DNA of 34,029 nt. Origin: Devosia equisanguinis (GTDB taxonomy: Bacteria > Pseudomonadota > Alphaproteobacteria > Rhizobiales > Hyphomicrobiaceae). The notes beneath the pieces are model-generated. The model was not told the origin of the DNA, did not search any database, and saw only the letters and a program-made list of their open reading frames with translations. The stretch spans positions 1-34,029 of the forward strand of contig CAMDPA010000002.1 in assembly GCA_945903565.1 (NCBI GenBank), in the 5' to 3' direction. Made by a program: the position numbers and the translations under genes. Position 1 is the first letter of the stretch, and each line of letters opens with the position of its first letter. This document shows, one piece after another, positions 4,241-18,646 of this stretch.

Positions 4241-4355
4241 GTGAGTGGCGAGTGGTGCGTTGTGCGTGGTGCGTGGTGCGTGGTGAATGGCGGCAAGGCA
4301 GGTCGGCTCAGATTACCACTCACCATTAACCACTCACCACTCACCATCCACCCTT
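4241..4355. repeat. Inverted arrays of degenerate heptamer GGTGMGT: about 7 units at 4241-4290, about 5 units in opposite orientation at 4315-4355
   Basis: Left GGTGAGT GGCGAGT GGTGCGT TGTGCGT GGTGCGT GGTGCGT GGTGAAT; right strand reads CCACTCACCATTAACCACTCACCACTCACCATCCACC. Confidence 0.85.
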
Positions 4356-8662: not shown

Positions 8663-9082
8663 TCAAACGCCAGCAAACGGATTGAGTGCGCGCACGGTGC
8701 CATAGCTTTGCCCGTGGTTCAGATCCTCGGTGTATAAAATCGGTGCCTGCAGTCGTTCAGCTGCGGCAATTACAGCTGCGTCCCAGTAGCTGATTCGGTA
8801 GCGCTCGGACAAAATGATCGCGGCCTTGATCAATGCCATATCGGTCTCGACCAAGGGCAATTGCTCGAGCCGCTCGATCCAGGCAAGCGCACGTGACGCG
8901 CTCAACCCGATATGAGCCTTGCGCCGGACGTTGACATAAAATTCCTGAAGCACTTGGCTCGAGGTGCCGAACTCATCCCCGGCTATGAGGTCGCGCGCCC
9001 GCTTTCTTTTGGGCTCGGCGTGTTCCCGGCCCATCGCTGCGTAAATCAGTATGTTCGTGTCCAGGAAGTACGGCACGCTCAT
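8663..9082 (-). CDS. PIN-domain (VapC-like) ribonuclease toxin
   Basis: MSVPYFLDTNILIYAAMG...SSQVLQEFYVN...ISYWDAAVIAAAERLQAPILYTEDLNHGQSYGTVRALNPF; acidic PIN residues present. Confidence 0.9.
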   Translation of the reverse strand: MSVPYFLDTNILIYAAMGREHAEPKRKRARDLIAGDEFGTSSQVLQEFYVNVRRKAHIGLSASRALAWIERLEQLPLVETDMALIKAAIILSERYRISYWDAAVIAAAERLQAPILYTEDLNHGQSYGTVRALNPFAGV

Positions 9083-10537: not shown

Positions 10538-10701
10538 CGTCATCCTCGACCGAAGTAAGCCGAAGGCGAACGAGCGTCGGGGACCCAGCACAAGACTCGT
10601 GCGAAGCACGCACTATTGTATTGACGCCTTCGGCGACTTCTTGTGCTGGGTCCCCGACGCGGCTGCGCGCGTGAAGCGGCGCTCGCCGGTCGAGGATGAC
10701 G
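10538..10701. mobile_element. Palindromic MITE-like intergenic element, copy 1 (complete)
   Basis: 15-bp perfect termini CGTCATCCTCGACCG (10538-10552) / CGGTCGAGGATGACG (10687-10701); internal 20-bp perfect inverted repeat GTCGGGGACCCAGCACAAGA (10576-10595) / TCTTGTGCTGGGTCCCCGAC (10639-10658). Confidence 0.8.
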
Positions 10702-15887: not shown

Positions 15888-16538
15888 ATGAAGATCTTCA
15901 CCTACTGGCGTTCGCTCGCGACGTTCCGTGTGCGCATGGCGCTGAACCTCAAGAACCTCAAGGCCGAGGAAATCGAGGTCGATCTTTCCGCCGGCCATCA
16001 GATGAAGCCGGAGTTTGCCGCCATCAATCCGATGAAGGCGATTCCTGTGTTCATCGACGACGACGGCACGACGCTGCATCAGTCGTTGCCGATCATGGAA
16101 TACCTCGACGAGCGCTATCCCGATCCGGCCCTGATGCCGCGCGATCCCGCCGGCCGCGCGCGGGTACGGGCGCTGGCACAGATGACGGTGGCGGACAGCC
16201 ATCCGCTGGTGGTGCCGCGCGTGCGCGCTGATCTCGCCAGCCGCTTTGGCGCGACGCCCGAGCAGGTGACGCGCTGGGCGCAGACGTGGCTGATCGCGGG
16301 CCTCGATGCCTACGAGACCACACTGAAGCGCGACAAGGAAACCGGCGACTTCTGTCACGGCAACGCCATCACGATCGCAGACATCTGCCTGGTCAGTCAC
16401 GCCGCCGGCACGCGCTTTTTCGAAGGCACGATCGACGGACATCCCACGGTCAAGCGCATCGTCGAGCGCTGCCTTGCTGACGAGCGTATCGCGCGTGCGC
16501 ATCCCTTGCGTCAGCCCGGTGCGCCCAAATCGGTGTGA
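15888..16538 (+). CDS. maiA: Maleylacetoacetate isomerase / zeta-class glutathione S-transferase family
   Basis: MKIFTYWRSLATFRVRMALNLKNL...INPMKAIPVFIDDDGTTLHQSLPIMEYLDERYPDPALMP. Confidence 0.85.
   Translation: MKIFTYWRSLATFRVRMALNLKNLKAEEIEVDLSAGHQMKPEFAAINPMKAIPVFIDDDGTTLHQSLPIMEYLDERYPDPALMPRDPAGRARVRALAQMTVADSHPLVVPRVRADLASRFGATPEQVTRWAQTWLIAGLDAYETTLKRDKETGDFCHGNAITIADICLVSHAAGTRFFEGTIDGHPTVKRIVERCLADERIARAHPLRQPGAPKSV
16483..16538 (+). repeat. Direct repeat copy A: 56-bp 3' end of maiA
   Basis: AGCGTATCGCGCGTGCGCATCCCTTGCGTCAGCCCGGTGCGCCCAAATCGGTGTGA; 51/56 identical to 17724-17779 by manual alignment. Confidence 0.9.
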
Positions 16539-16824
16539 GCCGTTGGGGCTCGCGCCTCGAACGGACCTGCGTTTGGACTTTTTGCAATCTGGGCCGGACT
16601 TCGAGAAACGGCAGGGCGAGGGGCGCTGTGCGACAACATACGGTGCCCCGCATCCTCATCCCGGTCGCCCGCGCCTTCAGGAGCCTACTTGGTGTCTACC
16701 AGCGTCTTAAGGACCTCTCGATGGGGTCCGCGGGGCCTCTGAGTCGTAGGATCGCCGAGCCGGACGCTTGCAGGGCGCAAGCTGTGAAGCTGGAAAATCA
16801 ACCCGTAATAGCGTATCCTGAGCG

Positions 16825-17139
16825 ATGAAGGAGCAAAGCCTAATCATGGGCCGCGAGGACATCATTGCGCGCATACGGGAGCGAGCCGAGGCCGTCAGAG
16901 CCTTGGGCGCGACGGCGCTTTACATTTACGGTGCGCGAGTGCGCGGTGATGAGAGGGCCGACAGCGACCTCGACGTGTTTGTGGACTTCGATCCTACAAA
17001 GTTCGGGTTCGTCGAACTTGTCGAACTCGAGGACATGCTGTCCCGCGAGCTTGGCCTAAAGGTTCAGCTCGGTACCCAAGATGCACTGCACCCGCTGATG
17101 AAACCGGCCATCGAGCGCGATGCCGTGCGGGTATTGTAG
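16825..17139 (+). CDS. MNT-family minimal nucleotidyltransferase
   Basis: ALGATALYIYGARVRGDERADSDLDVFVDFDPTKFGFVELVELEDMLSRELGLKVQLGTQDALHPLMKPAIERDAVRVL. Confidence 0.92.
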   Translation: MKEQSLIMGREDIIARIRERAEAVRALGATALYIYGARVRGDERADSDLDVFVDFDPTKFGFVELVELEDMLSRELGLKVQLGTQDALHPLMKPAIERDAVRVL

Positions 17140-17147
17140 AGCCTCCG

Positions 17148-17486
17148 ATGCAAGACGACCTGATCCCGCTGCCTGACATCCTCAAGGAAATCGATGTCCT
17201 GCATTCGGTCCGGGATCGCACGACCCTCGATGATTTTAAAGCCAGTGCCTCCGATGTGCGCGCCACGTCCTATTCGATTATGGTGATATCAGAGGCCGTG
17301 CGCCGCATTCCGGCGGAATGGCTCGATGAATTTCCGGCGACGCCGTGGCACGCCATCCGAACAATCGGCAACAAGCTTCGCCATGAATATCAGCACATCA
17401 GCGAAATCATCCTTTGGGGCGTCATCGCGACTCATTCAGCCACGCTGAAAACGACCATTGAGGAAATGCTCGTCAGACATAGTTAA
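17148..17486 (+). CDS. HEPN-domain (DUF86/HepT-like) protein
   Basis: Starts 9 nt after the MNT stop; SYSIMVISEAVRRIPAEWLDEFPATPWHAIRTIGNKLRHEYQHISEIILWGV. Confidence 0.9.
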   Translation: MQDDLIPLPDILKEIDVLHSVRDRTTLDDFKASASDVRATSYSIMVISEAVRRIPAEWLDEFPATPWHAIRTIGNKLRHEYQHISEIILWGVIATHSATLKTTIEEMLVRHS

Positions 17487-17508
17487 GCCAACCCGCATGG
17501 ACACTGGC

Positions 17509-17640
17509 CGTCATCTTCGACCGAAGTGAGCCGAAGGCGAACGAGCCTCGGAGACCCAGCGCAAGGCTCGCACCAAGCCCGCACTGTGAACATGATTTCC
17601 AGTGCCCTCTGTACGTCTTGCGCTGGGGCCGCGTCGCACA
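17509..17640. mobile_element. Palindromic MITE-like element, copy 2 (degenerate, right terminus missing)
   Basis: 17509-17578 matches 10538-10607 at 61/70 positions by manual alignment; right inner arm GTCTTGCGCTGGG is recognisable but the terminal CGGTCGAGGATGACG is absent. Confidence 0.75.
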
Positions 17641-17723
17641 CGGTTTGCCAGCAGGGGAAATTCTTGTGACGTGCCCTCGTCGGTCGGTGCTGAGTTCCCT
17701 TCGCGCGACGCCCCACATTCCCA

Positions 17724-17779
17724 AGCGCATCGCGCGCGCGCATCCATTGCGTCAGCCCGGTGCGCCCAAATCAGCGTGA
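17724..17779 (+). repeat. Direct repeat copy B: duplicated maiA 3' end (pseudo-terminus)
   Basis: AGCGCATCGCGCGCGCGCATCCATTGCGTCAGCCCGGTGCGCCCAAATCAGCGTGA; encodes RIARAHPLRQPGAPKSA* versus RIARAHPLRQPGAPKSV* in maiA. Confidence 0.9.
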
Positions 17780-17788
17780 CGGCGGTAA

Positions 17789-18646
17789 TCACTCCGCGAA
17801 CAGCGCATCGGCAGCGGCAATGTACGCCGCCGGTCGCTCACGCGGCAGGTTATGTCCGCATTGACCGAGCAAGTGCACGTCCGCGTCCGCCAACCGCGCG
17901 GCGAGTTTTATCGTCGTCTCCGCCGCCGGACATGGCTGGTCGTTGCGCCCGTGCAGCATCACCACCTTGGCGCGGATCGCGGCGAACTCCGCGTCGGTGA
18001 TGACGCCGGCATCGAGATAGCGCTGGCGTGGCGCGGCGAACATGTCAGCGAAATACGTCGCGTAATCGCTGCCGCTGAGAAAGCGCAGGCGGTCCTCGAT
18101 CATCGCATCGGTGACGGCGGCGGGATCGTGCACCATGCGTTGCATTGCCGCCCGTAGAGCGCCGGTTTCGGCCGGCGCCGACCAGAACGCATCGAGCGCC
18201 ATCGGCAGCACATAGGGCGCACCGACGCTGCTCGATGTCAGCACCTTCGTGATGCGCGGGCAGCGCGCCGCCAGCTCGAGCGCGACGGCGCCGCCCATCG
18301 AGTGACCGGCAACGCCACATGGCCCCGGTGGCAATAGGTCAAGCATCGCTTCGGCTTGCCGCACCCAAAGCTCGACGTCGAAGTAGGGCGGTGCGGGTTT
18401 GCGGCCGGAATTGCCGAAGCCGATGAGATCGGTCGCGACGATCCGGAACTTCGTAGCCAGCGGCTCCAGCACCGGTCCGAAATTGCCCTGGATCGACGTG
18501 CCCGGGCCGACCCCATGCAACATCAGGAACGGGAAGCCGGAGCCGCCTTCCCAAAAGTGGACCTTGATGCCGTCGAACTCGGTCAGTCTACTTGCCAACA
18601 CGTGTTGCCTCCAGCCTGCCCCTGAGCAGCGCGCTTCCCGGCTCAC
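17789..18646 (-). CDS. Alpha/beta-hydrolase (meta-cleavage-product-hydrolase-like); start may be GTG near 18601
   Basis: FPFLMLHGVGPG, GVAGHSMGGAVALELA nucleophile elbow, MLHGRNDQPCP, LGQCGHNLPRERP. Confidence 0.88.
   Translation of the reverse strand: MSREARCSGAGWRQHVLASRLTEFDGIKVHFWEGGSGFPFLMLHGVGPGTSIQGNFGPVLEPLATKFRIVATDLIGFGNSGRKPAPPYFDVELWVRQAEAMLDLLPPGPCGVAGHSMGGAVALELAARCPRITKVLTSSSVGAPYVLPMALDAFWSAPAETGALRAAMQRMVHDPAAVTDAMIEDRLRFLSGSDYATYFADMFAAPRQRYLDAGVITDAEFAAIRAKVVMLHGRNDQPCPAAETTIKLAARLADADVHLLGQCGHNLPRERPAAYIAAADALFAE

Follow-up and report, generated by a model that had tools for sequence, protein, structure and literature searches.

The relic of a P4-type integrase island with an MNT-HEPN gene pair lies beside a duplicated maiA 3' end in Devosia equisanguinis

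Results

The window, that is, the whole stretch of 34,029 nucleotides of Devosia equisanguinis DNA that was analyzed, contains a short islet between two convergent genes. To its left lies maiA (15888 to 16538, plus strand), an intact gene encoding a maleylacetoacetate isomerase of the GST fold (NCBIfam TIGR01262, 208.5 bits against a cut-off of 171), the protein of which is 82 to 84% identical to those of congeners G002 and G003. To its right lies a convergent alpha/beta hydrolase gene (17789 to 18646, minus strand; PF12697/PF00561), with orthologues in congeners G001 to G003 (71 to 73%). The islet itself holds the remains of an integrase gene, an MNT and a HEPN gene, and two dispersed repeats, and it is followed by a second copy of the maiA 3' end.

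The terminal 56 bp of maiA (16483 to 16538, plus strand; copy 1, the functional end) recur as a direct repeat at 17724 to 17779 (copy 2, an orphan end), 10 bp from the hydrolase stop codon, with 51 of 56 positions identical (91%), as the sequence-only reading had reported. Since the next-best match to this 56-mer on either strand of the whole window reaches only 30/56, the repeat is not a product of chance. The homology is bounded exactly by the TGA stop codon on the right and by AGCG on the left, and maiA itself is left intact; the longest run identical in both copies is 26 bp, TTGCGTCAGCCCGGTGCGCCCAAATC. It is likewise confirmed that four of the five differences are synonymous (CGT/CGC twice, CCC/CCA and TCG/TCA) and that the fifth, GTG/GCG, replaces V with A at the end of MaiA. 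The further step of taking this mostly synonymous divergence as a sign of a foreign allele, a gene end carried in by an element, is rejected here as weak. The synonymous excess (P = 0.027, assuming neutral change of one copy) is poor evidence, and it calls for no selection on copy 2, if part of the change fell in the functional copy; when polarized against the congeners, one change falls to copy 1, two (including the sole replacement) fall to copy 2, and two are ambiguous.

Beginning ~44 bp behind maiA and lying just upstream of the MNT-HEPN genes, positions 16582 to 16806 (plus strand) contain what is left of a P4-type tyrosine integrase gene, a piece of its C-terminal region, as seen by local alignment, tblastn, and translation. 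The relic corresponds to the final ~75 codons of the Rhizobiales bacterium Ga0077524 integrase: its local alignment score is 78, whereas 300 dinucleotide shuffles averaged 22 and never exceeded 33, and tblastn returns 9e-13, spread over two frames. The ~330 N-terminal residues are absent, and the remainder contains a frameshift and stops. The catalytic Tyr codon is kept, while the HxxR box (HDLRR to CNLGR) and the second active-site His (LNH to LIP) are gone, leaving a truncated gene without a functional set of catalytic residues. The islet had previously been read as free of integrase or transposase and, therefore, as mobilized in an unusual manner; the absence of an integrase and the unusual mobilization are both contradicted by this relic, which lies directly behind maiA.

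When 60 relatives were searched at the DNA level, the islet was matched, at 77 to 78%, by two genomes from other genera of the same family: the Rhizobiales bacterium Ga0077524 MAG (G035:C298, LNDR01000298.1) and the Hyphomicrobiaceae bacterium SB17 MAG (G028:C115, WBUN01000051.1). In both, an intact tyrosine integrase gene (Arm-DNA-bind_3, Phage_int_M, and Phage_integrase domains) stands directly upstream of MNT and HEPN genes, in the same order and direction as in the window, and it is through homology to these two enzymes that the C-terminal relic is assigned to the P4-type class. The Ga0077524 match, 78% identical over 875 bp, runs upstream past MNT into the integrase gene. Between the window and Ga0077524, DNA identity is 66% for the relic, 84% for MNT, and 83% for HEPN, while in the control comparison of Ga0077524 with SB17, in which all three genes are intact, the corresponding values are 71% (integrase C terminus), 79%, and 80%; the integrase has thus decayed and the MNT-HEPN pair has been kept. 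By this comparison, the integrase has lost at least two thirds of its length while the pair was retained. The window differs from the intact tRNA islands in that its integrase is a dead fragment, that no tRNA or tRNA att site is nearby, that the flanking repeat is of maiA, and that the polarity is reversed.

The 4.56-kb element of Ga0077524 (L066:4284-8898) is bounded by two perfect 55-bp copies of a tRNA-Pro 3' end in direct orientation (4284-4338 and 8844-8898), and the fact that neither copy runs into a full tRNA suggests a locus of stacked islands. In SB17 (L067:7279-13259), int-MNT-HEPN is directly followed by the Lamassu genes LmuA, LmuC, and LmuB (PADLOC E-values of 1.8e-45, 8.4e-10, and 6e-117, respectively), which places the lineage among defense islands. 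The cargo of the intact int-mntA-hepT relatives is defense, and their sites are tRNA 3' ends, mostly those of tRNA-Pro(GGG). The islet represents a type that is already known, a P4-type integrase island with an MNT-HEPN pair, present here as a relic. A HEPN profile search of the genome contigs matched only the int-MNT-HEPN genomes Ga0077524 and SB17; no maiA or HEPN relative was found in viral contigs, and neither the plasmid DNA search, the phage protein search, nor the Rfam search gave a match.

The sequence-only reading had also described a MITE-like repeat, which resolves into two dispersed palindromic families. Family A (17490 to 17642, plus strand; predicted fold of -62.6 kcal/mol) exceeds 10 copies across the genome and also occurs in the congeners. 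Family B, for which over 25 genomic matches are known, is represented by its left half only (17678 to 17733, plus strand). The right half of B is absent where copy 2 starts: the B consensus goes on as CCCGAGCGATGCGTCGGG, while the window passes into maiA copy 2 at AGCG (17724 to 17727). These ~4 bp are common to the B consensus and the maiA end and fall within the 3 to 10 nt range adopted for microhomology, and the boundary looks like a microhomology join. On the other hand, half-length B copies are present elsewhere in the genome (~2 of 18 aligned), so the B/maiA break may predate the join and need not mark the breakpoint. Both families are separate, intergenic repeats. With dozens of copies over many contigs, including one at 10538 to 10614 of the window, they have a REPIN- or MITE-like look.

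To place the junction in context, we compared three congeners, G001 to G003. In none of them does maiA adjoin the hydrolase gene, the two being on separate contigs in unrelated contexts, and in G002 and G003 it is an acyl-CoA ligase gene that faces maiA in convergent orientation. Neither an empty site with a single maiA end nor a complete second maiA beside the hydrolase gene was seen in these congeners. The orthologue of this ligase in the genome under study is on another contig (C100), where it is followed by repeat sequence and then by the contig end. This end (L149:3022-3268), at the position held by maiA in the congeners, consists of a repeat and an apparent IS end common to contig C489. 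The genome also has a second gene of the maiA family, a paralogue on contig C274. At ~40 other maiA-family loci across the order, there was no nearby integrase and no second 3' end (best match, 36/60), and none of these loci adjoined the hydrolase gene.

The target preference of the integrase lineage was examined in its 30 nearest family integrases. A tRNA 3' end lies at most ~700 bp upstream of int in 27 of them, 3 being ambiguous, and the tRNA strand is opposite to int in 27/27 cases; the integrases closest to the relic mostly target tRNA-Pro(GGG). At maiA, the int-proximal copy is a complete gene parallel to int, so that both the type of target and the polarity differ from those of the lineage. 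There are no tRNA genes in the window. The tRNA-Pro(GGG) gene of the genome is on a separate contig (C72), and a link to it was considered and rejected, as no convincingly matching int fragment was found beside that tRNA.

Discussion

The arrangement described above is, in our view, probably best accounted for as the relic of a small P4-type int-mntA-hepT genomic island that reached the maiA-hydrolase junction by general or illegitimate recombination rather than by the action of an integrase at maiA. On this view, the maiA repeat is probably a scar left by recombination rather than the site at which the relic integrase landed. Two routes can be envisaged for an island fragment that would have ended up between maiA and the convergent hydrolase gene: (i) a diverged donor segment, comprising a maiA allele and the islet, would have recombined through maiA homology on the left, with joining on the right at the AGCG microhomology within the old maiA 3' end (homology-facilitated illegitimate recombination, HFIR), and (ii) the maiA end would have been duplicated, with a deletion following. 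After either route, maiA would be complete, the islet would follow it, and 56 bp of displaced maiA end would remain beside the hydrolase gene. Copy 2 abutting a half-length B repeat at ~4 bp of microhomology suggests an old scar of general recombination or of duplication and deletion. HFIR, which has been documented with anchors of 3 to 10 nt (PMC8504540, PMC6382021), would cover the intact maiA, the diverged orphan end, and the microhomology junction in one transfer, while duplication-deletion would take more steps. The window resembles the documented cases in having one side in homologous sequence and the other in a short microhomology join; it differs from them in that HFIR is deduced here from anatomy alone, neither a donor (maiA followed by the islet) nor a recipient (maiA beside the hydrolase gene) having been found among the genomes compared. 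Several features run against an origin by general or illegitimate recombination: the relic ~44 bp behind maiA, the flanking direct repeats, and the homology ending at the stop codon have the look of a classical att duplication, and the repeat length of 56 bp is close to that of the 55-bp att repeat of Ga0077524.

The duplication-deletion branch of this explanation can also be stated separately, with copy 2 as what remains of a second, full-length maiA, arisen as a tandem or segmental duplicate, that lost its 5' part, from repeat B up to codon 198, by deletion, and with the island fragment inserted independently in the intergenic space. We regard this as unlikely, if the first of the alternatives to be considered. 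Copy 2 is joined directly to the half-length repeat B, the genome has kept a maiA paralogue on C274, and the differences polarize partly to copy 1 and partly to copy 2, as is expected from divergence in place. The space between the copies, however, holds no further trace of a second maiA, and the sequences downstream of either copy are dissimilar, so that a simple tandem duplication would need extra deletions.

Next in order, and doubtful, is site-specific integration at the maiA 3' end by the relic integrase or by a second, lost one, in which an attP carrying its own maiA end recombined with attB, making copy 1 attL, the restored end, and copy 2 attR. Genomic islands at the 3' ends of protein genes, such as icd and guaA, are known. 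As in those islands, the gene is kept whole by the duplication of its end, and the islet contains an integrase relic, here beside copy 1; the direct repeats are at a gene 3' end, their homology ends at the stop codon, and their 26-bp identical core is flanked by differences on both sides. In contrast to those islands, the present integrase lineage offers no evidence of the use of protein genes, and there is no second example at maiA. A single integration step of this kind would explain the repeat, yet it conflicts with the behavior of the integrase's relatives: the nearest intact enzymes target tRNA-Pro antiparallel to int and leave a displaced fragment beside int, whereas at maiA the full gene is beside int and parallel to it, and none of the sampled genomes has an integrase at a maiA locus. 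Given that the relatives insert at tRNA 3' ends in the reverse polarity and that ~40 maiA loci are without an insertion, the relic integrase is unlikely to have created the maiA repeat; the weights that we give to these readings are a matter of judgement. The proposal of the sequence-only reading that an element inserted at the maiA terminus with its own version of the gene end, therefore, survives in part: a mobile island was acquired, as the relic integrase attests, while its insertion there by that integrase is disfavored. A bolder reading, in which a tRNA-Pro-targeting lineage of P4-type integrases switched to the maiA 3' end with reversed polarity and with a diverged maiA end on board that keeps the enzyme intact, seems to us improbable; if true, such a target switch would make maiA a new site of island integration.

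Finally, an artifact in which strain variants were joined in a metagenomic or draft assembly is very improbable, since the ~4-bp overlap at the B/maiA junction and the 26-bp identical run are both too short for a false join, even in an assembly of 577 contigs with 4.6% contamination and with repeat B present in many copies.

What appeared to be an integrase-free mobile islet thus becomes a standard one in decay, with a rotting integrase and a conserved toxin-antitoxin-like pair. It follows that a duplicated gene end can lie next to an integrase relic without being the att site of that integrase, and that the target and polarity of intact related elements are worth checking before an att site is assigned.

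The conserved pair consists of an MntA-like MNT nucleotidyltransferase gene (16825 to 17139, plus strand; likely starting at the internal ATG at 16846) and a HepT-like/DUF86 HEPN gene (17148 to 17486, plus strand), and matches to PF01909 and PF01934, respectively, together with alignment, bear out the earlier identification of both between the repeat copies. The adjacent genes, in antitoxin-toxin order, resemble the type VII HepT/MntA toxin-antitoxin system, for which the motifs GSX10DXD and RX4HXY have been defined (PMC7641770), and differ from it in both motifs. In the MNT protein (window positions 16930 to 16974), GA replaces the catalytic GS, giving GA-X10-DLD where both intact relatives have GS-X10-DLD, and the protein scores 35 bits against the NCBIfam MntA model, under its cut-off of 60. 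The HEPN gene is still open, and in its product GNKLRHEY stands where RX4HXY would be expected; the same holds for the HEPN proteins of both intact relatives, in which the R is likewise absent; the HEPN profile had no match in the PDB. Since a change of GS to AT abolished toxin modification in a published archaeal pair, it is plausible that adenylylation has been lost in the window pair. The genome contains a second MNT-HEPN pair (C9:3568-4400), located among fatty-acid beta-oxidation genes, in which MNT retains GSX10DXD and HEPN has GNLLRHEY for RX4HXY.
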